In this document: positions 12,755 to 36,744 of the stretch, in pieces | How the letters are laid out: each line of letters opens with the position of its first letter | Position numbering within the stretch: position 1 is the stretch's first letter | From: Propionivibrio limicola | GTDB taxonomy: Bacteria > Pseudomonadota > Gammaproteobacteria > Burkholderiales > Rhodocyclaceae | NCBI RefSeq assembly: GCF_009469695.1 | Contig: NZ_SSSR01000026.1 | Coordinates: 1 to 43,104 of the forward strand | Length of the DNA: 43,104 nt | Reading direction: 5' to 3' | Position numbers and translations under genes: made by a program | Notes under the pieces: generated by a model | What the model was told of the DNA's origin: nothing | Seen by the model: only the letters and a program-made list of their open reading frames with translations | Database searches by the model: none

Positions 12755-14662
12755 TCAATCGCATGGGCTTTCCATTGTTCCCGGCGCGTGGTTGTGGATG
12801 AACGTCACCAGTTCGGCCAGCGGCAGCGGGCGGCTGATCAGGTAGCCTTGCAGAATGTCACAGCCGTGCGCGGTCAGAAATTCGGCTTGCGCCTCGGTTT
12901 CCACGCCTTCGGCGACGACGGTGATGCCGAGCGCCTTGGCCATCTGGATCACGGCGGACACGATGGCTGCATCTTCGCTGTTGTCGGGCAGACGGTGCAC
13001 GAACTGCTGGTCGATTTTGAGCGCGCCGACCTGAAAACGGCGCAGGTAGCCGAGCGAGGAATAGCCGGTGCCGAAATCGTCGATGGCCAGCGTGAAGCCG
13101 GCGTTGCGGAAAGCGGTGAGCACGTCCGCGCCATTTTCCGCCATCAGGGCGTTCTCGGTGATTTCGAACTCGATGCGCTGGGCGCACTCGCCGAAGTGGA
13201 GCAGCGTCTTGCAGGCGTTTTCGACCAGCGCATTGCCGCGCGTCATCTCGCGCGGCGAGACATTGATCGCCATCTTCGGGATATTGATGCCTTGCTGCCG
13301 CAGGGCGGCAATGTCTTGGCAGGCGCGGCGGATGACCCAGGCGCCGATGTCGACGATGAGGCCGCTTTTCTCGGCGACCGGGATGAATTCGGCGGGGGAG
13401 ACAAACTCGCCGCCCGGCGGAATCCAGCGCATCAGCGCTTCGAAACCGACGATCTGGCGCGTGCGGGCACAGACTTGCGGTTGATAGGCCAGGTAGAGTC
13501 CGGTCTCTGGCGCATCGGTCCTGATGGCCTCGCGCAAGCCCGCTTCGATCTGCAAGTCGCTGCGGATCTTGCGGTTGATTTCTGCGGAAAAGAACTGGGC
13601 GCGATTCTTTCCTTGGGATTTGGCTTCGTACATCGCCATGTCCGACCAGCGCAGGAGTGTGGTCGGATCGTCGCTGTCGTTCGGCATCATCGTCATGCCG
13701 ATACTCAGCCCGACGTGGCTCGGGATCGGTTCGGTCGGGAAGGGGCGGGAGATGACTTCGATCATCTTGCCGGCAATGGCGTTGACGTTCTCCGGATCGC
13801 CGGGCCGGAACAGGATGGCCGCGAACTCGTCGCCACCAATCCGGGCGAGCACGTCGTCGGCACGTATCGTCTGCTTGAGGCGGTTGGCGATCATCTGCAA
13901 GACGTCGTCGCCAGTGGCGTGGCCGCAGAGGTCGTTGACCTTCTTGAAGTCGTCGACATCGATCATCAGCAAGGCGGCGTTTTCTTCCTCGCGCTGGATG
14001 CGATTGACCGCTTTCTTCAGCTCATATTCGAAGAAGCGCCGGTTCGGCAGCCCGGTGACGCGGTCGTAGAGCGCCATTTTTTCGAGTTCGCCCTCGGTGA
14101 TGGCCATCTTCTTGCGCAGTCGGGCGGTGAAGCGCCGCGAGAGAATGAGTGCGACCAGCCCGATGAGCACGAGTCCGACGGCGTAGATCAGCAGATTCGT
14201 GTACAGCGGCCTGTAGGTGGCGAGCAGAACCAGCGATCCGACGCGTACGCCGGCCTGCATGACTTCGACGCGCAGCAGTCGGGTGAAAAGGCCGGTATCG
14301 ACGCGTGGACGGGGTGGCGTATCGAGTTCGAGGGGATTGATGCTGTCGGGGAAAATTGACTCCGGATCGTCAATCAGGATGAACAGATTGCCGTCTGTCT
14401 CATAAAGGGCGGCGCCGAGGATTCTCGCGGTCTTGCGGATCGCCGTCAGGTTTTCGTAGGCCGCTTTTTGATCGTTGAAGGCAAGCGCGGCCGCGCTGTT
14501 GGTGCCGAGGATGGCGGCTTGAGCCTCCAGTTCTTCCTCAAGTTGCTGCAAGCCCGAAACGTACTGGTACGTCATCAGCAGGATGAAGGTGACCAGCACG
14601 GCGACCGTGGTGGTGAGCAGCATCAGGCGCTTGGTGTATCGGGTGTGGGCGAGGATTTCCAT
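12755..14662 (-). CDS. Membrane-bound GGDEF-EAL protein (YfiN/TpbB-like sensor, CHASE8-type)
   Basis: A 635-residue protein. Membrane helices lie at about 13-33 and 155-176, enclosing a roughly 120-residue periplasmic domain of CHASE8 type (LEAQAAILGTNSAAALAFND). A short HAMP-like link leads to a GGDEF domain with intact GGDEF at 276-280 and an intact RxxD inhibitory site at 267-270, then an EAL domain with E408-A-L and DDFGTG near 528-533. Both the cyclase and the phosphodiesterase look competent. Pseudomonas YfiN is similar but has no EAL domain and is repressed by periplasmic YfiR. Here the gene starts two bases after the yfiR-like stop codon, so translation is probably coupled. Net direction (synthesis or breakdown of c-di-GMP) cannot be told from sequence. 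Confidence 0.92.
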   Translation of the reverse strand: MEILAHTRYTKRLMLLTTTVAVLVTFILLMTYQYVSGLQQLEEELEAQAAILGTNSAAALAFNDQKAAYENLTAIRKTARILGAALYETDGNLFILIDDPESIFPDSINPLELDTPPRPRVDTGLFTRLLRVEVMQAGVRVGSLVLLATYRPLYTNLLIYAVGLVLIGLVALILSRRFTARLRKKMAITEGELEKMALYDRVTGLPNRRFFEYELKKAVNRIQREEENAALLMIDVDDFKKVNDLCGHATGDDVLQMIANRLKQTIRADDVLARIGGDEFAAILFRPGDPENVNAIAGKMIEVISRPFPTEPIPSHVGLSIGMTMMPNDSDDPTTLLRWSDMAMYEAKSQGKNRAQFFSAEINRKIRSDLQIEAGLREAIRTDAPETGLYLAYQPQVCARTRQIVGFEALMRWIPPGGEFVSPAEFIPVAEKSGLIVDIGAWVIRRACQDIAALRQQGINIPKMAINVSPREMTRGNALVENACKTLLHFGECAQRIEFEITENALMAENGADVLTAFRNAGFTLAIDDFGTGYSSLGYLRRFQVGALKIDQQFVHRLPDNSEDAAIVSAVIQMAKALGITVVAEGVETEAQAEFLTAHGCDILQGYLISRPLPLAELVTFIHNHAPGTMESPCD

Positions 14663-14664
14663 GG

Positions 14665-15225
14665 TTATTCGATGATCTGCCGGGCGAGGCGAAGGGCCTT
14701 GGAACTGATCTGCAGGCCGGTTTTTTGAGCCGTGCGCAGATCGATGTCGAAGACAATGTGACCGCCGCTCAGTTCAAGATTGAGCATTACGCCGCGCCGG
14801 AAATAGTCCGGCGAGTCACCGGCAATCAGAACGGGGGCCGTTTGCTGTGCGGCCACGATCTCGGGCAGTCGGGCACGGTCGTCGGGCGAAAGATAAACGA
14901 CGTGGCATCCGGCCAGGCCGTCGGGCCGTACCTTGCTGGTCTGCAGGGTGCGGTTGCGCACTGCTTTCCCTTGGGCATTGCTCAGGGCGGTGGCGACCGG
15001 ACTGGAGCCCAGCACGCAGATCGACAGTCGATCGTTGGCAAGGGTCGGATGTGGCGGCCAGTCAACGAACATCGCCATGTTGATGATGATTGCGGCCTTG
15101 AGGTCGGCTTCGGAGGCTTTCATCTGCGCGGCGACGGGAAGCGCCAAGGCGCCGAGCCCGACGGCGAGGAGCGCGGAAGCGCCCTGTCGCAACCTGCGCT
15201 TCAGTAGCGGGAGAAAGATGTTCAT
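14665..15225 (-). CDS. YfiR-like periplasmic protein (DUF4154)
   Basis: A 186-residue protein. Residues 1-33 form a signal peptide: KRRLR, a hydrophobic core, then cleavage after PVAAQ. The mature part has the DUF4154 pattern: LKAAII.NMA.FVDWP, LSICVLGSSPVA, then GCHVVYLS and RRGVMLNLELSGGHIVFDIDL. C70 and C107 fall where YfiR of Pseudomonas has a structural disulfide. In that system YfiR represses the diguanylate cyclase YfiN from the periplasm, and release raises c-di-GMP. The gene lies between a TonB receptor gene (7 bases upstream) and a CHASE8-GGDEF-EAL gene (2 bases downstream), which fits the same regulatory job. No YfiB lipoprotein is present; the receptor may take its input role. Confidence 0.88.
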   Translation of the reverse strand: MNIFLPLLKRRLRQGASALLAVGLGALALPVAAQMKASEADLKAAIIINMAMFVDWPPHPTLANDRLSICVLGSSPVATALSNAQGKAVRNRTLQTSKVRPDGLAGCHVVYLSPDDRARLPEIVAAQQTAPVLIAGDSPDYFRRGVMLNLELSGGHIVFDIDLRTAQKTGLQISSKALRLARQIIE

Positions 15226-19779: not shown

Positions 19780-20886
19780 ATGAGTCAGGAATTCAAGGTG
19801 TTCATCGTCGATGATGATCCCACCGTAGTCGAAATCATCGGTGCCATTCTGGAGCCGGATTATCCGCAGGAAAGTTTCCTGAGCGCCGAGGATTGCCTGC
19901 AGCGATTGGCGTCCGAGAAGCCGGATCTGTTTCTCCTCGACGTCAACCTGCCCGGAATGAACGGCTACGAGCTTTGCCAGCGGATCAAGAAAGAAGCGGG
20001 CATGCGCAACACATCCGTCATTTTCGTTTCCGGCCACGATACGATTGAAGAGCGCATCAAGGGTTATGACGCCGGGGGCGAGGACTTCATCGTCAAGCCG
20101 TTCGAGCCGGAAGAACTCATGCGCAAGGTGCAGGTTGCCGAGAGCATTGTGCGCAATCAGCGTTCCCTTGCCGAGCAGGCGGAGCAGGCCGAACTCCTTT
20201 CATCGCTGGTCATGGCCAGCATGGACGAAACCGGCATCCTGCTTCAGTTCATGAGCAAGCTGATCGCGATGGAAACGCCGGCGGAGATTGCCGAGGAACT
20301 GCTCGGACTGATGCAACGCTACCGCCTCGAAGGTGTGGTGCAGACGCGCATTGGCGACGACGTGGAAACGGTCAGCGCGGCTGGCATAAATTTGCCGCTG
20401 GAGGTTTCAGTGATCGAGCATGTGCGCGGGCAGGGGCGGATTTTCGAGTTCAGCTGCCGTGGCGTGCATAACTTCGAGCGTGTCACGCTCATGGTCAACA
20501 ATCTGCCGCTGGATGACCCGGATTACTGCGGTCGCTTGCGCGATCATCTTTCGGTGGCGGCGCAAGGCGTCGATTCCCGGCTCAAGGCCATCCAGGCTGA
20601 GCGGGCTGTACTCTCGGCCCTGGACAATATCGGCGATACGATCATGGAGCTGCGCAGTGCCCAGCAGCGCAATACGCAGGCCAGTTCAAAGCTGATCAGC
20701 GATCTGCAGGAGACGTTGCTCAACTCCTTCTACAAGCTGGGGCTGACGGATAACCAGGAGAAATTCCTGCAGAATCTGGTGGGCGATTTCATGGGCCGCA
20801 TGGCCGAACTGCTCAACCGTGATTCCGAAACCCAGAACACCCTGCTGCGGCTCAATCAACGCCTCGGGCAGTTGCGGAGTTGCTGA
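19780..20886 (+). CDS. Response regulator with long helical output region
   Basis: A 368-residue protein. The receiver (residues 5-122) has acid pocket DDD 11-13, phosphoacceptor D54 in LLDVNLPGMNG, and KPFEPEEL. A coiled coil follows (RNQRSLAEQAEQAELLSSLV, about 127-150), then a roughly 120-residue region unfamiliar to me (LQFMSKLIAMETPAEIAEEL, YRLEGVVQTRIGDDVETVS) and a second helical part (SRLKAIQAERAVLSALDNIG) to the C-terminus. It is no DNA-binding, GGDEF, HD-GYP or PP2C domain that I recognise. The middle part has GAF-like features. RBS AGAGGACGTC precedes ATG 19780. The next gene, cheD, begins close to or overlapping its stop codon. Confidence 0.85.
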   Translation: MSQEFKVFIVDDDPTVVEIIGAILEPDYPQESFLSAEDCLQRLASEKPDLFLLDVNLPGMNGYELCQRIKKEAGMRNTSVIFVSGHDTIEERIKGYDAGGEDFIVKPFEPEELMRKVQVAESIVRNQRSLAEQAEQAELLSSLVMASMDETGILLQFMSKLIAMETPAEIAEELLGLMQRYRLEGVVQTRIGDDVETVSAAGINLPLEVSVIEHVRGQGRIFEFSCRGVHNFERVTLMVNNLPLDDPDYCGRLRDHLSVAAQGVDSRLKAIQAERAVLSALDNIGDTIMELRSAQQRNTQASSKLISDLQETLLNSFYKLGLTDNQEKFLQNLVGDFMGRMAELLNRDSETQNTLLRLNQRLGQLRSC

Positions 20887-20921
20887 GCGTCGGAGCGGTG
20901 GTTGTGAATGCTTCTGGAACC

Positions 20922-21533
20922 ATGGGTGCCCCCGTCGCCACCGTTGATTACGCCCGCCTTCCCGTCAAGGAGATCGAGCGTCACGCACGGAGCGTGCATC
21001 CCGGGGCGTGGGCAGTCGAGACGCAGAAGCCGCTATCGACGCTGCTCGGCTCGTGCGTTGCGGTCTGTCTGTTCGACCCGATGCTGCGGATTGGCGGCCT
21101 CAATCACTTCATGCTCCCCGATATGGGGCGGGCCCGGAACGGCGATGTCGATTCGCTCCTGTCCGGCAACTTCGCCATGGAAGCGTTGCTGAACGCCCTG
21201 ATCAACAAGGGAGCAAAAAAAGTCCGTCTGCAAGCCAAGGCGTTTGGTGGCGGTACGATCATCGACACGGACGGCGGCTCGCTGAGCATCGGCATGCGCA
21301 ATGCCGGTTTTGCCAAGGAGTGGCTCGAGCGCGAGGGGATTCCGCTCGTCGCCTCGGATTTTCTCGGCCCGTGGTCACGCAAGGTGTTGTTCCTGCCGTC
21401 GAGCGGTGAAGCGTTTTGCAAGCGGATGGTGACCAACATGGCGACGGCGGACGTCATTGCCCGCGAGGAGCGCGCCTATGCCGAGACATTGCGGCAACCG
21501 TCGCCGACGGGCAAGAAAATCGAGTTGTTCTGA
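20922..21533 (+). CDS. cheD: Chemoreceptor glutamine deamidase CheD (first copy)
   Basis: A 203-residue CheD. The catalytic triad residues are T40, C45 and H62 within STLLGSCVAVCLFDP and GGLNHFMLP; the AKAFGGGTII segment is also conserved. CheD deamidates glutamines in receptor cytoplasmic domains and can interact with CheY-P-handling proteins. The N-terminal extension VDYARLPV.EIERHARSVHPG and the C-terminal KKIELF are typical of betaproteobacterial CheD. The start is uncertain: TTG 20880 would overlap the previous stop, and GTG 20898 or 20904 have a weak GGAGCG site; ATG 20922 is the conservative choice. It overlaps cheR in TGATG, giving translational coupling. Confidence 0.88.
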   Translation: MGAPVATVDYARLPVKEIERHARSVHPGAWAVETQKPLSTLLGSCVAVCLFDPMLRIGGLNHFMLPDMGRARNGDVDSLLSGNFAMEALLNALINKGAKKVRLQAKAFGGGTIIDTDGGSLSIGMRNAGFAKEWLEREGIPLVASDFLGPWSRKVLFLPSSGEAFCKRMVTNMATADVIAREERAYAETLRQPSPTGKKIELF

Positions 21534-22342
21534 TGGTCGAGATTCCCATCACCGATCAGGAATTCACGCTTTTTCAGCGCCTGATCTACAAGATTGCCGG
21601 CATTTCGCTGAGCGACGCGAAACGGGTGTTGCTGGTCGGGCGACTGGCGAAACGGTTGCGGCAATACGGCTTGTCGTCCTTCACCGCGTACTACCGCATG
21701 CTGGCGAGTGGCGATCATCCGGAGGAATTGCAGACGATGGTCGATCTGCTGACGACGAACGAAACGTATTTTTTCCGCGAGTCGCAGCATTTCAGCTTCC
21801 TTCGTGACGAGATCGTCGCCCGGCGCAAGAACCCGGCACCGTTCCGCGTGTGGAGCGCCGCGAGTTCGAGCGGCGAGGAAGTCTATTCGATTGCAATGAC
21901 GCTGGCCGAATGCCTGCCGGATACGCCGTGGGAGGTGATGGGGTCGGACATCTGCACCCGCGTTCTGGCTAAGGCGACAGCCGGCCATTATTCGCTGGCC
22001 CGCACCGAGGGCATTCCGCCCGGCTATATGCGCAAATATTGCCTGAAGGGCGTGCGCTCGCAGGCGGGGACTTTCCTGATCGCGCCGGAGCTTCGTCAAA
22101 AAACGCGCTTTTGTCAGATCAACCTGATGCAGCCGGTCGAGGCTGCCATCGGCGAATTTGAAGTCGTTTTTCTGCGCAACGTGATGATCTATTTCGATCC
22201 CGAAACGAAGGCAAAGGTCGTGCACAACCTCTTGCCACGCCTCAAGCCGGGCGGGCATCTCATCATCGGTCATTCCGAAACGCTGAACGGCATTACCGGG
22301 CAGGTTGTCGCGGTAAAGCCGACCATCTACCGCAAGCCATGA
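21533..22342 (+). CDS. cheR: Chemoreceptor glutamate methyltransferase CheR
   Basis: A 269-residue CheR. The N-terminal helical domain (TDQEFTLFQRLIYKIAGISL, MVDLLTTNETYFFRE) is followed by a SAM-binding domain with RVWSAASSSGEEVYSIAM, GSDICTRVLAKA and the LRNVMIYFD motif; then GGHLIIGHSETL. It methylates receptor glutamates with SAM. No C-terminal TPR or pentapeptide-binding extension is seen beyond the normal domain. ATG 21533 overlaps the first cheD stop, and its own stop overlaps the second cheD start (ATGA), so a cheD-cheR-cheD block is translated as a unit. No cheB methylesterase gene is in the window. Confidence 0.92.
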   Translation: MVEIPITDQEFTLFQRLIYKIAGISLSDAKRVLLVGRLAKRLRQYGLSSFTAYYRMLASGDHPEELQTMVDLLTTNETYFFRESQHFSFLRDEIVARRKNPAPFRVWSAASSSGEEVYSIAMTLAECLPDTPWEVMGSDICTRVLAKATAGHYSLARTEGIPPGYMRKYCLKGVRSQAGTFLIAPELRQKTRFCQINLMQPVEAAIGEFEVVFLRNVMIYFDPETKAKVVHNLLPRLKPGGHLIIGHSETLNGITGQVVAVKPTIYRKP

Positions 22343-22893
22343 GTTGCCCGCTGCCGTCATTTCCGCGCAAGGAGAGCGTCAAAAATGTGATGCTCCAGCC
22401 AGGAGATTTTTTCTTCGGCGGCGGCGATACGCGGATTTCCACGCTCCTCGGCTCGTGTGTCTCGATCACGTTCTGGCATCCGCACCAACGCATTGGCGGC
22501 ATGTGCCATTACATGCTCACCGAGCGCGCGAAGGCAGGTAGCGCAGCGCTTGATGGGCGCTACGCGAGCGAAGCATTCGCCCTGTTTCTCCGTCATGTTG
22601 ATGAGGCCGCCACGCGGCCGTTGGAATACCAGGCCAAGATTTTCGGCGGGGCAAACATGTTCGTCGAAACGCCGGGGGCCAGTATGGATATTGGAGCGCG
22701 CAACATTGAGTACGGCGTTCGCTTGCTCGCCTCACGGCATATTTCCATCGTGTCGCGCCATGTTGGCGGGAGTGGGCGGCGCAAGCTGCATTTTGACCTC
22801 TGGAGCGGCGACGTCTGGCTGGCGTTCCCTGATGGTTCCGGTGCGGAGGTGGAGGGCGCCGCCGAGAGCCGTTTCCAGCGAGTGAATAGGTAG
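22339..22893 (+). CDS. cheD: Second CheD-like glutamine deamidase
   Basis: A 184-residue CheD paralog, clearly different from the first copy. Catalytic residues T35, C40 and H57 are intact (STLLGSCVSITFWHP, GGMCHYML), and AKIFGGANMF is the second conserved block. It has the N-terminal MLQPGDFFFGGGDTRI, the common CheD form, and lacks the ELF C-terminus; it ends FQRVNR after a short acidic and polar tail. ATGA overlap with cheR. Two active-looking CheD proteins flanking one CheR suggest different receptor substrates, or that one works as a regulator. Confidence is high for the family, low for why there are two. Confidence 0.85.
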   Translation: MSCPLPSFPRKESVKNVMLQPGDFFFGGGDTRISTLLGSCVSITFWHPHQRIGGMCHYMLTERAKAGSAALDGRYASEAFALFLRHVDEAATRPLEYQAKIFGGANMFVETPGASMDIGARNIEYGVRLLASRHISIVSRHVGGSGRRKLHFDLWSGDVWLAFPDGSGAEVEGAAESRFQRVNR

Positions 22894-23931: not shown

Positions 23932-24297
23932 ATGAGCACGGTCATGTTGGTGGACGATTCGGCCACCATTCTTTTGAGTATTGCGAGCATTCTGGGCAAA
24001 GCGGGTTATTCGGTGGAAAAAGCGCCCAATGCCGAGCAGGCGCTCAAGAAATTCAATGACGGCGTGAAGATCGACCTGTTGATCACCGATCTCAACATGC
24101 CCGGCATGAATGGCATCGAACTGATCAAGGAAGTGCGCCAGCTTCCTTCGTACAAATTCATGCCGATTCTTTTTCTGACCACCGAATCGCAGCAGTCGAA
24201 GCGCATGGAAGCGAAAGCGGCGGGCGCATCGGGCTGGATCGTCAAGCCGGCGACGGCCGATGAATTGCTTAACACGATCAAGCTTGTCCTCCGTTAA
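23932..24297 (+). CDS. cheY: CheY-type single-domain response regulator
   Basis: A 121-residue receiver with nothing after it. Acid pocket D8-D9 (LVDDSATI), phosphoacceptor D53 (LLITDLNMPGMNG), conserved Thr in LFLTTES and Lys in WIVKPAT. This is the CheY family. Phospho-CheY would be made by the CheA encoded 0.9 kb downstream and hydrolysed by the CheZ-like protein that follows 7 bases later. AAGGGAGAAAGGGCGTT precedes ATG 23932. The target (flagellar motor, pilus or an enzyme) cannot be inferred here because no such genes are present. The first gene after a larger gap, so it may have its own promoter. Confidence 0.92.
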   Translation: MSTVMLVDDSATILLSIASILGKAGYSVEKAPNAEQALKKFNDGVKIDLLITDLNMPGMNGIELIKEVRQLPSYKFMPILFLTTESQQSKRMEAKAAGASGWIVKPATADELLNTIKLVLR

Positions 24298-24304
24298 GGG
24301 GGCG

Positions 24305-24868
24305 ATGCCGATAATGATTCATTCGGAGATCGTGCGAGGCGAGCAGTCCGCCGACGGGGAAATCGTCAATGAGCGCATTGCCGTCGAGCTGGAGCAGGTC
24401 CGCCTGTTCAACGATGTCATGCGCGGCCAGTTGCAGGCGGTGGCCGAGGCCACGGAAATCGCGGCGTTCAGGATCGCCGAACGTTTGCACGTCCTCGATC
24501 GCGAGGTGGCGAAGCTTGAATCGATCACGTCGGACACGACGGCACCGGCCGAGGGCGTCCGCCAGTGCATTAGCAGGATGGCTGGTGGGCTGTTTGAGGC
24601 GCACGCGCAAATCCAGTTTCAGGATGTCGTTCGGCAGCAGATCGAGTTGATCGTGCAGGCGCTCGGCCAACTTGATGAGCATGCTTTACAGCTGGCGCGG
24701 AGTCTGCGCGACCCCGGGCCGTCGGTCGCGCAACCCTCAGTGGCCGAACGTCTTGATGAGTTGTACAGCGGTTACGTGATGGATCGTCAACGTGTGGCCC
24801 ATGATGTGGCGCTTCAGCGTGAAACGCCCTCCACGGGGACGGCGCCACTGCGAACGGAACTCTTCTAA
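24305..24868 (+). CDS. CheZ-like CheY-P phosphatase
   Basis: A 187-residue, almost wholly helical protein. The segment around residues 104-113 is QFQDVVRQQI, matching the CheZ active-site helix (FQDLTGQ in E. coli). D107 and Q111 line up with catalytic D143 and Q147, the D-x-x-x-Q rule. The rest is not closely CheZ-like; it could be called a FQDxxRQQ-type chemotaxis protein. It ends LRTELF; canonical CheZ ends in a short amphipathic CheY-binding tail, and the neighbouring CheD also ends in ELF. AAGGGGGCG precedes ATG 24305. It sits between cheY and the STAS gene, which supports phosphatase function. Confidence 0.68.
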   Translation: MPIMIHSEIVRGEQSADGEIVNERIAVELEQVRLFNDVMRGQLQAVAEATEIAAFRIAERLHVLDREVAKLESITSDTTAPAEGVRQCISRMAGGLFEAHAQIQFQDVVRQQIELIVQALGQLDEHALQLARSLRDPGPSVAQPSVAERLDELYSGYVMDRQRVAHDVALQRETPSTGTAPLRTELF

Positions 24869-24880
24869 AAGGGGAATGCA

Positions 24881-25186
24881 ATGTCGTCCGGCCAGCTATT
24901 GACCTTGACCGAGGATCTGACCATCTACAACGCGCTTGAGCTCAAGTCACGTCTTCTGGAAGCGCTTGCCTCTTCCGACGCGCTTGAGCTCGATCTTCTT
25001 CAGGTTGCCGACATCGACACCGCCGGGGTGCAGTTGCTTCTTCTGCTCAAGAAGGAAGCGCAGCGGGCCGGGAAAAGGGTGGCGATTGTCGCCCACAGTC
25101 AGGCGGTGCGCTCGGTGATCGAATTTTGCAATCTGGCCGCCGAGTTGGGCGACCCGCTGGTGATTCCGGCCACCGAGTCGGTATGA
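24881..25186 (+). CDS. STAS-domain protein
   Basis: A 101-residue single STAS domain. TIYNALELKSRLLEAL and LDLLQVADIDTAGVQLLLLLK contain the phosphoacceptor region; the usual Ser/Thr is the Thr of DIDTAG. STAS proteins act as phosphorylation-controlled antagonists in partner-switching and also occur just before cheA in some chemosensory clusters, as here (10 bases upstream of the preferred cheA start). AAAAGGGGAATGCA precedes ATG 24881. No anti-sigma kinase or PP2C gene is in the window, so if it is phosphorylated the kinase must lie elsewhere. Confidence 0.85.
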   Translation: MSSGQLLTLTEDLTIYNALELKSRLLEALASSDALELDLLQVADIDTAGVQLLLLLKKEAQRAGKRVAIVAHSQAVRSVIEFCNLAAELGDPLVIPATESV

Positions 25187-25196
25187 GGAGATGGAA

Positions 25197-27443
25197 ATGG
25201 ATGAGCTGAAAGACGAGTTGATCAGCGTCTATGTCCAGGAAAGCCGCGAACAGCTGGACGAGATGGAGGATGGTCTGCTGCGCCTTGAGCAAGACCCGGA
25301 TGACGCGGACAACATCAACGCGATTTTTCGTGCGGCCCATACGATCAAGGGCGGTTCGGGCGTCATCGAATGTGGTTTTATCGAGCAATTCACGCATCGT
25401 GTCGAAAACCTGCTCGATGCCCTGCGTAACGGTGAAATCGCGGTCAGCGGACCACTGGCCACGCTGCTGCTGGAATGCTGTGACCACATGCGCAGCCTGA
25501 TGGATGTCCTCGTTGCCCAGAAGTCGTCGCCCGATGATGAAGTGCAGGTACGCGGGGAGGAGTTAGGCAACCGCCTGCAAATCTTTATCGATAGCGTTCG
25601 GGCGGCGACTTTGCCCCCCGTCGCTGCTTCCGATGCCGTCGAAGTTGAGAGCAGCGGCGGCGGTGAGGTCAATACCGATAGTTGGCACATTTCCGTGCGT
25701 TTTGGCCAGAACGTCTTGCGTGGCGGAATGGAGCCGTTATCGTTCCTCCGTTTTCTCGCCTCGCTGGGCGAGGTCGTTGGCATTGAGACAGTGCCGGACG
25801 GGATTCCCGCCGCGGCCGAAATGGACCCGGAATCCTGCTACCTTGGTTTCGAAATCCGTCTGAAAACAACGGCATCAAAAATCGAGATCGAGCGTGTGTT
25901 CGACTTCGTGCGGGATGATTGCGAGCTGCGCATTTTGCCGCCGCACAGCAAGCTTGATGACTACATCCTGCTCATTCAGGAACTACCTGAAGACACGATG
26001 CGGTTGGGCGAAATGCTCGTGCGTTGTGGCGCGCTGACACAGAGCGAACTTGAGCGGGGACTGATCGCGCAACAACAGGCGACGGATGCGACGGCGGAAC
26101 AGGAAGCCGCGCCATCGACGCCGCTCGGCGAGATTCTCGTCGGGAGCAAGCTTGTTCATAAAGAAGTGGTCGACGCCGCCGTTGCCCGCCAGACCCAGGT
26201 GACCGACAAGAAAGCCCGCGATGCGCAGATGGTGCGGGTGCAGGCCGACAAGCTCGATCAACTGATCGACCTCGTCGGCGAACTCGTGATCGCCGGTGCT
26301 TCCGCCAACCTGATTGCGTTGAAAAGCCGGCACAGCGAATTGCTCGAAGCGACTTCCGTACTCTCAAGACTGGTCGAGAGCATCCGCGATTCGGCGCTGC
26401 AACTGCGCATGGTGCAGATTGGCGACACGTTTACGCGTTTCAACCGCGTCGTGCGCGATGTCTCGAAGGAACTCGGCAAGGAGATCGAACTGTCGATCAG
26501 CGGCGCCGAGACGGAGCTCGACAAGAGCGTCGTCGAGAGAATTGGCGATCCGTTGATGCACCTCGTGCGCAATTCGCTCGACCACGGCATTGAACCGGCC
26601 GACGTGCGTCTGGCGCGCGGCAAACCGGCGTGCGGGCGCGTTTCCCTCAACGCGTTTCACGACTCCGGCAGCATCGTCATTCAGGTCTCGGACGACGGCG
26701 GTGGGCTGAACCGCGAGAAAATCCGTGCCAAGGCCATCGAGCGCGAACTGATCCAGCCGACCGATCCGCTTTCCGATCACGAGATCATCAATCTCATCTT
26801 CGAACCCGGCTTCTCGACCGCCGATCAAGTCTCCAAGCTCTCCGGTCGGGGCGTTGGCATGGACGTTGTCCGCCGCAACATCCAGGCGCTGCGCGGCACG
26901 GTCGATGTGGCTTCGGTCGAAGGCCAGGGCTCGACGTTCACCATTCGCCTGCCACTGACGCTGGCCATCATCGATGGCTTTCTGGTCGGCATCGGCCGCG
27001 CGTCCTACGTCATTCCGCTCGACTCGGTCGTCGAGTGCATCGAGCACAAGAACCTGGCCGGCGAGCGCAACTTCCTCAACCTGCGCGGTGAAGCGCTGCC
27101 GTTCATCCGCCTGCGCGATCTGTTCGAGATCGAGGGGCAGGCGCCGGCGCGCGAAAGCATCGTCGTCGTCCAGTTCGGCGGGCAGCGCGCCGGCATCGTC
27201 GTCGATCAACTGATGGGCGAGTTCCAGACCGTCATCAAGCCGCTCGGGCGGGTGTTCGCCAACCTGCGCGGCATCAGCGGCTCGACCATTCTCGGTAGCG
27301 GCGAGGTGGCACTCGTCCTCGATGTCGCCGCGCTGGTGCATATTGTCACGCGCGCCGAAGAGGAGTGCTGGCTGATGTACCGGCACGTCGCGCCCGTTTC
27401 TTCCGCAGCAAGCATTCCGCCAGCGATTTTGGCGGGGACATAA
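25197..27443 (+). CDS. cheA: Chemotaxis histidine kinase CheA with MshEN-like insert
   Basis: A 748-residue CheA. P1/Hpt domain at residues 1-110 with phosphoacceptor H48 (FRAAHTIKGGSG). A domain at about 158-250 (WHISVRFGQNVLRGGM, LASLGEVVGIE, ESCYLGFEI) stands where P2 normally is. Residues 269-292 and 309-332 form two copies of an MshEN-like motif: RLGEMLV, G278, L280, L285, L289, Q292, then PLGEILV to Q332. Then P3 dimerisation (DKLDQLIDLVGELVI), P4 kinase with HLVRNSLDHGIE (N box), DDGGGLN and GRGVGMDVVR (G boxes), and P5 CheW-like to the end. ATG 25197 is preferred to 25191 because GAGGAG lies 6 bases before it. It would phosphorylate CheY and perhaps other receivers of the cluster. Confidence 0.93.
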   Translation: MDELKDELISVYVQESREQLDEMEDGLLRLEQDPDDADNINAIFRAAHTIKGGSGVIECGFIEQFTHRVENLLDALRNGEIAVSGPLATLLLECCDHMRSLMDVLVAQKSSPDDEVQVRGEELGNRLQIFIDSVRAATLPPVAASDAVEVESSGGGEVNTDSWHISVRFGQNVLRGGMEPLSFLRFLASLGEVVGIETVPDGIPAAAEMDPESCYLGFEIRLKTTASKIEIERVFDFVRDDCELRILPPHSKLDDYILLIQELPEDTMRLGEMLVRCGALTQSELERGLIAQQQATDATAEQEAAPSTPLGEILVGSKLVHKEVVDAAVARQTQVTDKKARDAQMVRVQADKLDQLIDLVGELVIAGASANLIALKSRHSELLEATSVLSRLVESIRDSALQLRMVQIGDTFTRFNRVVRDVSKELGKEIELSISGAETELDKSVVERIGDPLMHLVRNSLDHGIEPADVRLARGKPACGRVSLNAFHDSGSIVIQVSDDGGGLNREKIRAKAIERELIQPTDPLSDHEIINLIFEPGFSTADQVSKLSGRGVGMDVVRRNIQALRGTVDVASVEGQGSTFTIRLPLTLAIIDGFLVGIGRASYVIPLDSVVECIEHKNLAGERNFLNLRGEALPFIRLRDLFEIEGQAPARESIVVVQFGGQRAGIVVDQLMGEFQTVIKPLGRVFANLRGISGSTILGSGEVALVLDVAALVHIVTRAEEECWLMYRHVAPVSSAASIPPAILAGT

Positions 27444-29150: not shown

Positions 29151-29774
29151 ATGGGACAGATCGTGCAAAATCAGGCGCCGCATCCAGTCAAGGCGGCCGC
29201 CACGGCGGCATTGGCCAGGAGCACGGCCATCGTGGCGGGAAATGAGCGGGAGCACCCCTCGCAATACCTGACTTTTTCGCTGGCCGGCGAAATGTTCGCC
29301 CTCGGTATCCTCAATGTGAAGGAAATCATTGAATACGGCCACCTGACCGAAGTGCCGATGATGCCGGCTTTCGTGCGCGGGGTGATCAACCTGCGGGGCA
29401 GTGTGGTGCCGGTGATCGATCTGTCGGCCCGCTTTGGCAGCAAGTCGACCGAAGTGACCCGCCGGACGTGCATCATCATCGTTGAAGTCTTCGATGGCGA
29501 GGTTCGGCACGACATCGGGGTTCTGGTCGATGCCGTATCCGAGGTGCTGGAAATTCCGGGCCGCGAAATCGAGCCGCCACCGTCGTTCGGGGCCAGGATT
29601 CGCGCCGATTTCATCGCCGGCATGGGCAAGGTCGATGGCAAGTTCGTGATCATCCTCAACATCGACAAAGTGCTCTCGGTCGAGGAAATCACGTTGCTGA
29701 CATCGGGCGAAGCCGCTGTCGGTACGGGAGCGGCCGGAGCGGCCGAAATCGCGATGGCCTGCAGCACGGCGTGA
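29151..29774 (+). CDS. cheW: Chemotaxis coupling protein CheW
   Basis: A 207-residue CheW. The domain (about 35-180) begins YLTFSLAGEMFALGILNVKEI and continues with VRGVINLRGSVVPVIDLSARFG, VLVDAVSEVLEIP and INIDKVLSVEEI. It links the receptor tip to CheA P5. The N-terminal 35 residues are Ala-rich and not conserved. It starts 14 bases after the mcp stop with AGGAAAGACGG upstream, so receptor, CheW and the following regulator form one unit. The C-terminal tail (SGEAAVGTGAAGAAEI) is low complexity. Confidence 0.92.
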   Translation: MGQIVQNQAPHPVKAAATAALARSTAIVAGNEREHPSQYLTFSLAGEMFALGILNVKEIIEYGHLTEVPMMPAFVRGVINLRGSVVPVIDLSARFGSKSTEVTRRTCIIIVEVFDGEVRHDIGVLVDAVSEVLEIPGREIEPPPSFGARIRADFIAGMGKVDGKFVIILNIDKVLSVEEITLLTSGEAAVGTGAAGAAEIAMACSTA

Positions 29775-29809
29775 GGCGGTGGGGTAGCCCGAATGGGTTG
29801 GAGGCAATC

Positions 29810-31048
29810 ATGGCGAAAAGCGGGGAATACGGGATGTGCACGGAAAAATCCGCGCCGCTTCTTGCCGAAGCTGCGGACGGAGAGGTCGTCCGTTCCCGGC
29901 CGGCCTCCGCTCCGCATTTGCTGAAGGCGACACCGGTGTCGCCGCTGCGCCGGCGCAGTACCGATAACGAGGTGGTGCTGGTTGTCGACGATGCGCCGGA
30001 GAACCTGAGTTTCCTCGGGTCGCTGCTGCAGGAAGCGGGTTACCGGGTGAAGGTCGCCAACAGCGGTTTCGTCGGGCTTGGACTGGCATCAAGGGAGCCG
30101 AAGCCGGCGTTGATCCTGCTTGACGTGATGATGCCGGGCATGGATGGCTATGAAATGCTGCGCGAGCTGCGCGCCAATCCAGCGACGTGTGATATTCCGG
30201 TCATTTTTCTGACGGCGCGGGACGCCGACGAGGACGAGCAACGCGCCTTCGATGCCGGTATCGCCGACTACATCGTCAAGCCGATCAAGCCCGCCGTCGT
30301 GCTGGCGCGGGTGCGCAGCCAGCTGCTGGTCCGGCACGCCCGTCTGTGGCTGCAGAACCAGAATCAGGCGCTGGAAGCCGAAGTGGCGCGCCGCATGCGG
30401 GAAAATGAGTTGATCCAGGCGGTCAGCATCCGGGCCTTGGCGCATCTTGCCGAAACGCGCGACAACGAAACGGGCGATCATCTGGAGCGCACCCAGTCCT
30501 ACGTCCGTCTGCTCGCGACGCGCTTGGCGACGCATCCACGTTTCTCCGCCATCCTGTCCAGCCGTTACATTGAAAGGCTCACCCTCTCGGCGCCGCTGCA
30601 CGATATCGGCAAGGTCGGGATTCCGGACCGCATTCTGCTCAAGCCCGGGCCGCTGGCGCCCGACGAATGGGAGATCATGAAAACGCATACGCTGTTGGGC
30701 TACGAAGCGATTACTCTCGCCGAGCGCGACATCGATACGTCAGTCGATTTTCTTGCCCAGGCCAAGGAAATTGCCCGGTGGCACCACGAGCGCTGGGACG
30801 GCCGCGGCTACCCGGACGGGCTGGCGGGCGATGCCATTCCTGTCTCGGCGCGGCTGATGGCGCTGGCCGATGTGTTCGATGCAATGATCTCAAAGCGGGT
30901 TTACAAGGAGGCCATGCCGTTTTCCGAGGTGCGTGGCTTGATCGCCAGCGAGCGAGGGCGTCAGTTCGACCCGGATGTGACCGACGTATTTCTTGCCGGG
31001 TATGATGAATTCACGGCGATTGCGCAGCATCACGGTGTTAATCGGTGA
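29810..31048 (+). CDS. HD-GYP response regulator (predicted c-di-GMP phosphodiesterase)
   Basis: A 412-residue protein. A disordered lead (1-52) precedes a receiver with acid pocket D60-D61 and phosphoacceptor D105 (LILLDVMMPGMDG), a coiled coil (about 180-205), then an HD-GYP domain. All hallmark residues are present: HLER near 224-227, HD at 264-265 (PLHDIGKVGIPD), HHE at 325-327 and GRGYPDG at 331-337. HD-GYP enzymes hydrolyse c-di-GMP to pGpG or GMP. The frame is open from 29771 but GTTGGAGGCAATC precedes ATG 29810, giving 35 bases after cheW. Last gene of the chemosensory cluster and a plausible output: CheA phosphorylates the receiver, lowering c-di-GMP. Confidence 0.9.
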   Translation: MAKSGEYGMCTEKSAPLLAEAADGEVVRSRPASAPHLLKATPVSPLRRRSTDNEVVLVVDDAPENLSFLGSLLQEAGYRVKVANSGFVGLGLASREPKPALILLDVMMPGMDGYEMLRELRANPATCDIPVIFLTARDADEDEQRAFDAGIADYIVKPIKPAVVLARVRSQLLVRHARLWLQNQNQALEAEVARRMRENELIQAVSIRALAHLAETRDNETGDHLERTQSYVRLLATRLATHPRFSAILSSRYIERLTLSAPLHDIGKVGIPDRILLKPGPLAPDEWEIMKTHTLLGYEAITLAERDIDTSVDFLAQAKEIARWHHERWDGRGYPDGLAGDAIPVSARLMALADVFDAMISKRVYKEAMPFSEVRGLIASERGRQFDPDVTDVFLAGYDEFTAIAQHHGVNR

Positions 31049-36099: not shown

Positions 36100-36744
36100 T
36101 TAGCCGACCGGCGCGCGTAACGGCATCACGTCGACGACCAGGCGCACGAGTTCGGCGACCGAACCGGCCTGAAGCTTTTGCATGATGAGCTGCCGGTACG
36201 TTTCGGTGGTGCGCACGCCGATGCCGAGTTCGTCGGCGATCACCTTGGTGATCTTGCCGTCGAATATTCCCTGCAGCACTTCTTTCTCGCGCGGCGTCAG
36301 CTGCGCGATGCGCTCGCCGATCGCACGGTTTCTGAGCAGAAGTTCGGCGCGCTCCTTGTTGATGCGCAAGCCGTCCTGAATGCGCTCGATCAACTCCTGC
36401 GAGGAGAACGGTTTCTGGAAAAAGTCGAGCGCTCCGCCCCGCATGGCGCGCACCACCGATTGCACTTCGGCGTAAGCGGAAATGAAGATGATCGGCAGAT
36501 TGACGTTGCGCCGGTTCAGTTCGTCCTGCAGTTCGAGACCGCTCATGCCGGGCATGCGCAGATCGCTGACGATGCAGCCCTGTAATCCGTCGAGATCCTG
36601 TTCGACGAACTTCAAGGCGCTCTCATAGACGACGCACGGCAGGTTGATCGATTCGGCGAGATCAACCAGCAAAAAGGTCACGACCGGATCGTCGTCGATT
36701 AGAAAAACCTTGGGCGTCCCCCGCTCGGAATGGTCATTTTTCAT
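36100..36744 (-). CDS. FixJ/LuxR-family response regulator
   Basis: A 214-residue protein. Receiver at 10-125 with acid pocket D17-D19 (LIDDDP), phosphoacceptor D61 (IVSDLRMPGMSG), SAYAEV and FFQKPFSSQEL. A short linker leads to a LuxR-type helix-turn-helix (about 148-205: LTPREKEVLQGIFDG, ELGIGVRTTETYRQLIMQKL). FixJ-like regulators activate transcription as phosphorylated dimers. The frame is open to 37077, but the ATG at 36744 starts just before the receiver. Convergent with the 1663-residue hybrid kinase with one base between stop codons, so the two are probably a cognate pair. Its own promoter lies in the 36745-36860 gap. Confidence 0.9.
   Translation of the reverse strand: MKNDHSERGTPKVFLIDDDPVVTFLLVDLAESINLPCVVYESALKFVEQDLDGLQGCIVSDLRMPGMSGLELQDELNRRNVNLPIIFISAYAEVQSVVRAMRGGALDFFQKPFSSQELIERIQDGLRINKERAELLLRNRAIGERIAQLTPREKEVLQGIFDGKITKVIADELGIGVRTTETYRQLIMQKLQAGSVAELVRLVVDVMPLRAPVG

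Follow-up and report, generated by a model that had tools for sequence, protein, structure and literature searches.

The chemotaxis histidine kinase CheA encoded in a 43,104-nucleotide stretch of the Propionivibrio limicola genome (contig NZ_SSSR01000026.1, positions 1 to 43,104; hereafter the window) carries, at residues 255-345, a segment that is considered, with a probability of about two in three, to be a genuine MshEN_N domain that binds cyclic diguanylate (c-di-GMP) and tunes the kinase. Support for such a domain comes from sequence-profile membership, the predicted fold and the conservation of nearly all ligand-contact positions. The two parts of this reading do not stand equally firm: the sequence suggests that the segment probably binds c-di-GMP, with an affinity that would be roughly micromolar or better, and modelling points, with less assurance, to binding that would also regulate the kinase.

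The domain pairing itself has been noted before. In database searches, Wang et al. (2016) reported in one sentence that MshEN occurs with the chemotaxis protein kinase CheA (PMC5013675), and a 2021 study of NfrB names chemotaxis among MshEN processes and describes most such proteins as uncharacterised (PMC8669469). No experimental test of an MshEN-CheA was found among the papers listed by searches of an open-access library, and the pairing, known since 2016, is apparently uncharacterised. Added here are conservation, fold and a comparison with PilF, which together make c-di-GMP binding likely.

Tandem motifs and profile family membership

Bases 26001-26192 of the window encode CheA residues 271-334, in which an earlier note, made from the letters alone, had recognised tandem MshEN-like motifs. 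Both motifs are present: motif I (RLGEMLVRCGALTQSELERGLIAQ, residues 271-294) agrees with the consensus at 10 of 11 positions and motif II (PLGEILVGSKLVHKEVVDAAVARQ, residues 311-334) at 7 of 11, and the match of the NCBIfam family NF053729 spans the two. The base positions given in that note were right, its residue numbers were two too low (its R269 and Q292 are really R271 and Q294), and its spacer of 16 residues in CheA was correct, although the value of about 23 that it gave for MshE should be 5 (PMC5013675). The CheA spacer is thus longer than the five-residue spacer of MshE. The contact residues R, L, G, L, L and Q are all present in motif I of the window protein, and five of the six are kept in kind in motif II, with Pro for Arg and Val for both later Leu residues. 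On shuffling of the protein, a score of 10 was never reached (0/20,000; top shuffle score 9), but a score of at least 7 occurred in 2,831 of 20,000 shuffles; motif II is therefore not significant by shuffling alone and needs other evidence.

Such evidence was sought in profile families. NF053729 ('cyclic di-GMP-binding domain, MshE-related') matches residues 255-345 at 36.7 bits (E 2.7e-9) in two stretches that cover both motifs, and the whole CheA protein at 29.5 bits (E 4.8e-7). At E <= 1e-3 it also matches 47 of 47 aligned segments in an alignment (A2) of the window with 46 of 68 named loci. Genome-wide, six NF053729 matches were found; those above the cut-off lie in proteins with 568- and 649-residue frames and in a CheA paralogue (39.2 bits; 36.8 bits, just below the cut-off, when scanned as a protein), and two below it are the halves of the window domain (24.2 and 20.5 bits). 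When the 47-row A2 profile was compared with the PDB, the best match was PilF (6f8l, E 1.4e-16), followed by PilB (5zfr, 4.4e-9; 5tsg, 2.7e-8), MshE (5htl, 6.4e-5) and the PilF c-di-GMP domain (8pfa, 2.3e-4), and the top-scoring stretch of the best chain is PilF GSPII-C.

Three further observations touch on these searches. The same genome holds a second CheA with the segment (L117, G000:C56:64000-68500; RLGEILVRCGTLTENELDAALLAQ and PLGTVLVAEQMVSPTVVQAALQKQ), whose best match with the window CheA spans residues 8-652 at 59% identity. A weak NF053729 match at window 36283-36375 (+; 15.4 bits, E 0.05) is probably due to chance; the frame that contains it has 154 residues and faces a response-regulator gene on the other strand. 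The commonest Pfam match, DUF4388, weakly matches 37 of the 47 A2 segments (best 4.1e-5); in five inspected rows all its matches fall below the cut-off, on one motif half or extending towards the second. The matches were regarded as cross-similarity; DUF4388 may contain an MshEN-like half motif.

Conservation among relatives

The search of named genomes gave the best 80 of 220 confirmed matches, and among the matches listed the full-length relatives belong, judged by their record titles, to Rhodocyclales, Gallionellaceae, Burkholderiales, Methylococcales and Zobellella. Of 110 aligned loci 105 were kept, with L031, L032, L033, L035 and L036 excluded because their best match stops short of the segment; a 95% identity filter gave 91 rows, and removal by eye of L028, L029, L030 and L034, which have no MshEN segment, left 87. 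As two of the removed rows, L028 and L029, are of the same CheA lineage, the counts apply only to its members in which the segment is retained. A second alignment (A1) holds the window and 67 of the 68 named loci, with L084 (52-residue spacer) excluded; some loci with G handles come from the same genomes as named loci.

In motif I, Gly3, Leu21 and Gln24 are invariant (87/87 each), Arg1 is Arg in 78 rows and Lys in three, and Leu17 is kept in 67/87, with Val or Ile in the rest. Conservation of the first Arg and the last Gln, the lack of which the earlier note had named as grounds for refutation, is accordingly high in the rows that hold the segment (R271 is R/K in 81/87, Q294 is Gln in 87/87). 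Gly3 and Gln24 are likewise invariant in motif II. In every one of the 87 rows each motif keeps at least five of its six contact positions in kind, and of the 12 contact positions in the window CheA the motif-II Arg alone differs in kind. For motif I, conservation at the contact positions exceeds that of random sets of six (p 0.014). The spacer varies from 7 to 23 residues and is once 52.

Predicted fold

Template-free AlphaFold2 modelling of residues 160-410 gave a P2-like domain followed by helices in the order short-long-short-long across the two motifs and, after these, the P3 hairpin (mean predicted local distance difference test score, pLDDT, 77.2; predicted template modelling score, pTM, 0.48). 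A Foldseek search with this model returned mostly ferredoxin-like folds, matched through the P2-like part and with none at E <= 0.001, and the MshEN part was therefore modelled alone. The template-free model of residues 255-345 reached a pLDDT of 82.8 and a pTM of 0.69, and N-terminal domains make up all six of its best PDB matches: two chains are from MshE, one is from PilF and three are from Xanthomonas citri PilB. The top match is Vibrio cholerae MshE with c-di-GMP (5htl_A at 3.9 Å and 5htl_B at 1.5 Å, each over 67 columns) and the next is PilF GSPII-B with c-di-GMP (9gl5, 1.6 Å over 65 columns). It is the order of the hits that carries the structural evidence, since the Foldseek E-values are weak.

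Substitutions in motif II and binding by known MshEN domains

Studies of MshE and PilF give some measure of how far the changes in motif II may matter. In MshE, changes of Arg9, Asp12 or Gln32 altered affinity by at most about fivefold, changes of conserved hydrophobic residues cost more than tenfold, and the G11L and G40I variants show little or no binding; the side chains of the Gln residues form bonds to ribose and phosphate (PMC5013675). PilF GSPII-B, with Lys and Leu for the two Arg residues, binds at 6 nM, and Gln-to-Glu changes in both its motifs are described as abolishing binding completely (PMC11731258). The sole deviation of PilF GSPII-C is Pro335, at the first position of its motif II, and it binds at about 0.5 μM, an affinity like that of MshE (PMC11731258). 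Loss of the motif-II Arg in CheA was at first counted as evidence against binding and was then discounted on the PilF data: because GSPII-C binds with Pro at the same position, the loss is not disqualifying. GSPII-C is identical to the two CheA motifs at 11/24 and 12/24 residues, and as this binder has a spacer of 7, the exact spacer length seems non-essential.

A number of observations weigh against a functional c-di-GMP site in CheA. Residues 255-345 do match the MshE-related NCBIfam family, an outcome in favour of the earlier note, which would have been refuted by the lack of any MshEN hit, but the score lies just under the curated cut-off of 38, and no Pfam MshEN match was obtained for the window protein with matches listed up to E 10, nor for the 47 A2 segments. 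Motif II has R/K at position 1 in only 16/87 rows, the turn Gly in 17/87 and often Val or Ala at position 21, and the conservation of its contact positions does not significantly exceed that of random sets (p 0.13). The 160-410 model is only moderate (pTM 0.48, with a pLDDT of 58 near the P3 junction), Foldseek E-values for the smaller model are 0.45 at best with none at <= 0.001, and the top-ranked chain is the one that superposes at 3.9 Å. The X. citri PilB domain has the MshEN fold without the c-di-GMP motifs and binds a PilZ protein (PMC8389850), and because it supplies three of the six best chains, the fold alone is no proof of binding. GSPII-C has three motifs, and ligand contact by its Pro motif is not proven; this is the middle motif, and hence part of either adjacent pair. 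PilF GSPII-A fails to bind although its motif I is near-perfect, its motif II being degenerate, and in one construct Ser at the motif-II Arg position abolished binding (PMC12002112). The failure of GSPII-A is put down to several changes in its motifs, to an N-cap box that precedes helix 1 and to contacts between subdomains (PMC12002112). As regards the N-cap box CheA differs, which favours binding: a simple pattern (Ser, Thr or Asp within the six positions preceding the Arg, and Glu, Gln or Asp three residues further on) picked out no box of the GSPII-A type in the window or in 84 of the 87 rows. Finally, there are relatives that lack the segment or have a shortened form, and CheA can thus do without it.

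Proposed mechanism

In the mechanism envisaged, the MshEN_N domain, which lies between the P2-like and the P3 dimerisation domain, has two helix-turn-helix halves that would jointly form one pocket for one c-di-GMP. Since helix 4 ends about six residues ahead of the P3 hairpin in the 160-410 model, binding could shift the P1/P2 arm relative to P3/P4 or couple to the receptor array. Such a shift or coupling would raise or lower autophosphorylation or phosphotransfer, so that cellular c-di-GMP would in part determine the chemosensory output.

Evolution of the segment

A profile of residues 160-410 matched 105 of 398 genomes (an even draw of the phylum) at E 1e-10, many of them through the P2-like or P3 part alone. 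In a midpoint-rooted tree of the P3-P5 core with several long branches (82 rows, of which the 54 with the full segment are a chosen subset), row labels were assigned by script, apart from manual changes to three of them (L020 became full, L130 and L131 variant). The 54 full-segment members fall in one supported group (100/98) together with two variants and five segment-less rows (L028, L029, L132, L133 and L134); these five retain P3 and the P2-like domain (matched at E 5e-24 to 2e-41) but gave no MshEN profile match. At least one loss is well supported because L132-L134 adjoin segment-bearing Zobellella rows (99/98), and the tree suggests that the segment was lost at least once, perhaps three times. 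A distant CheA clade (L135-L150; 14 tree rows, support 100/100) has a compact form: 14 of 16 loci show a two-residue overlap of the motifs and Leu or Ile in place of the motif-I Gln; the exceptions, L135 and L138, have a one-residue spacer and keep the motif-I Gln. By analogy, most compact forms probably do not bind in the MshEN manner; the clade probably holds a derivative that has largely lost binding, or one that puts the fold to another use. Neither the MshEN nor the P2-like profile matched a further seven CheA proteins from related genomes (L030-L036). With the compact, probably non-binding clade set apart, the sequences on balance favour a beta- and gammaproteobacterial CheA lineage with a c-di-GMP receptor of its own, in which the core kinase, and not a receptor or adaptor, would be gated directly by the motile-to-sessile signal.

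This history bears on the alternative that survives best, namely that the segment descends from MshEN and persists as a rigid four-helix connector between the P2-like domain and P3, with c-di-GMP binding lost as in XpsE or PilF GSPII-A. Motif II without its Arg and mostly without its turn Gly would suit such a relic, as would the compact clade, through which non-binding derivatives probably exist, and known or predicted non-binders do retain the fold (PMC5013675, PMC12002112, PMC8389850). Nevertheless, Gly3 and Gln24 remain invariant in both motifs across the 87 rows, and the Gln would seem to have no evident role in the fold. In XpsE eight conserved positions are changed, including both Gly3 residues, Leu29, Leu54, Leu58 and Gln61 (PMC5013675), against one of 12 contacts in CheA, the motif-II Arg. 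Moreover, the five segment-less rows keep both the P2-like domain and P3 without it, which speaks against an indispensable connector, and a purely structural relic is considered unlikely.

c-di-GMP context and remaining alternatives

The genome has 31 GGDEF, 3 PilZ and 2 Flagellin_N matches; from the GGDEF and PilZ matches c-di-GMP is very likely made, and with Flagellin_N both c-di-GMP and swimming are plausible. A gene for a response regulator with receiver and HD-GYP domains (REC-HD-GYP) lies 2.3 kb downstream of cheA. Its best NCBIfam match is the response regulator c-di-GMP phosphodiesterase family, at 153 bits against a cut-off of 400, and its sequence shows what we take to be HDxGK and HHExxDGxGYP-type residues.

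The position and residues of this gene speak for the proposal, raised by the earlier note, of a dedicated local feedback loop between CheA-bound c-di-GMP and the REC-HD-GYP phosphodiesterase. Neighbours were surveyed in 68 related loci, counting the best same-strand match over 40% of the neighbour's length. A close REC-HD-GYP homologue (68-72% identity) was found beside the related cheA in only two of the 68 loci; downstream sequence of at least 3.7 kb is present in 50 of the 68. Two further matches, at 29% identity and upstream of cheA, are most likely receiver domains. Since there are 31 GGDEF matches in the genome, no single dedicated source of c-di-GMP is apparent. The gene association not being conserved, the dedicated loop was set aside as improbable. 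Least probable of all, and scarcely to be expected, is a role of this pocket or surface in binding a different ligand or partner, such as cyclic GMP-AMP (cGAMP), which MshE binds far more weakly (dissociation constant 3.3e-4 M; PMC5013675), or a PilZ-type protein, as the X. citri PilB domain of MshEN fold does (PMC8389850), for the CheA contact set is that of known c-di-GMP binders, X. citri PilB is without it and nothing suggests another ligand.

A further c-di-GMP module occurs about 10 kb from cheA, where a CHASE8-GGDEF-EAL protein (window 12755-15225, -) adjoins a YfiR/HmsC-like protein.

Domain architecture and gene neighbourhood

The window CheA has Hpt, dimerisation, ATPase and CheW-like domains in CheA order, all four above the Pfam cut-off (Table 1). 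The Pfam scan of CheA matched no family to the P2-like domain, which is strongly conserved among relatives.

Table 1. Position of cheA, its domains and motifs, and the REC-HD-GYP gene in the window
Feature	CheA residues	Window position	Strand	Basis
cheA, chemotaxis histidine kinase, 750 aa		25191..27443	+	Open reading frame; Pfam Hpt, H-kinase_dim, HATPase_c, CheW
P1, Hpt domain	9-101	25215..25493	+	PF01627, E 1e-16
P2-like domain	~163-253	25677..25949	+	Ferredoxin-like in model; conserved in relatives
MshEN_N-type four-helix module (predicted)	255-345	25953..26225	+	NF053729; profile vs PDB; AlphaFold2 and Foldseek
MshEN motif I	271-294	26001..26072	+	Consensus match; conservation in 87 rows
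Spacer, 16 residues	295-310	26073..26120	+	Hypervariable in relatives
MshEN motif II, Pro for Arg, Lys for turn Gly	311-334	26121..26192	+	Consensus match; conservation
P3 dimerisation domain	346-404	26226..26402	+	PF02895, E 3.1e-10; model helices; directly follows MshEN helix 4
P4 ATPase domain	453-590	26547..26960	+	PF02518
P5 CheW-like domain	596-717	26976..27341	+	PF01584
REC-HD-GYP response regulator		29771..31048	+	Pfam receiver and HD domains

The neighbours of cheA comprise CheR, two CheD (window 20880-21530 and 22339-22890), an HDOD protein, a CheY-type receiver, a protein without a Pfam family and a STAS protein, together with an sCache receptor, CheW, the REC-HD-GYP protein and a PAS-rich hybrid kinase. 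Near related cheA genes, STAS was found in at least 64 of the 68 loci, a CheY-like receiver in at least 62, a receptor in at least 55 and CheW in at least 48, counts that are lower bounds because some loci are short. The STAS gene (window 24881-25183), directly upstream of cheA, is thus the most constant of the neighbours sought. The protein at window 24260-24865 matched no Pfam or NCBIfam family and has homologues in 36 of the 68 loci; it contains FQDVVRQ, which we take to be a DxxxQ pattern of the kind present in the CheZ phosphatase, and by its sequence it is perhaps a CheZ-like phosphatase. No CheB methylesterase domain was found in the 21 window proteins scanned with Pfam, and a 368-residue protein (window 19780-20883) has a receiver domain only.

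Significance and relationship to known systems

Entry of c-di-GMP into chemosensory pathways is known through PilZ receptors and adaptors. A c-di-GMP site in CheA, if true, would place the signal on the kinase itself, where receptor inputs meet. With a domain of small size, and with MshE and PilF showing which residues to mutate, the remark of Wang et al. (2016) becomes directly testable. Cultured relatives with the same architecture include Azonexus hydrophilus, Dechloromonas denitrificans and Propionivibrio dicarboxylicus; segment-less relatives are natural controls, and the losses together with the compact clade provide a natural series for the mechanism.

The MshEN-CheA fusions of Wang et al. 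(2016) show the same domain pairing as the window CheA, although the text examined gives no CheA sequence or test (PMC5013675). V. cholerae MshE (5htl) shares with the CheA segment two 24-residue motifs, a four-helix bundle and Gly3, Leu and Gln24 contacts, but differs in its five-residue spacer (16 in CheA), in the Arg and Gly that are Pro and Lys in CheA motif II, and in the MshEN_C subdomain that follows, whereas in CheA P3 follows directly. PilF GSPII-C of Thermus thermophilus resembles CheA in the motif-II first-position Pro, a spacer longer than 5 and Val at motif-II position 17, and differs in keeping the motif-II turn Gly, in its third motif and in its host, a type IV pilus ATPase. In Escherichia coli NfrB MshEN is likewise joined to a non-ATPase enzyme, which binds c-di-GMP with a Kd of 1.0 μM and is inferred to be activated allosterically; NfrB is, however, a glycosyltransferase with a C-terminal MshEN that its authors call fully conserved (PMC8669469). 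The PilZ chemoreceptor Cbp1, like the CheA proposed here, reads c-di-GMP directly into a chemosensory pathway (PMC6454048), but in PilZ systems the input is made through PilZ at the receptor or methyltransferase, whereas in this CheA lineage it would be made through MshEN at the kinase.

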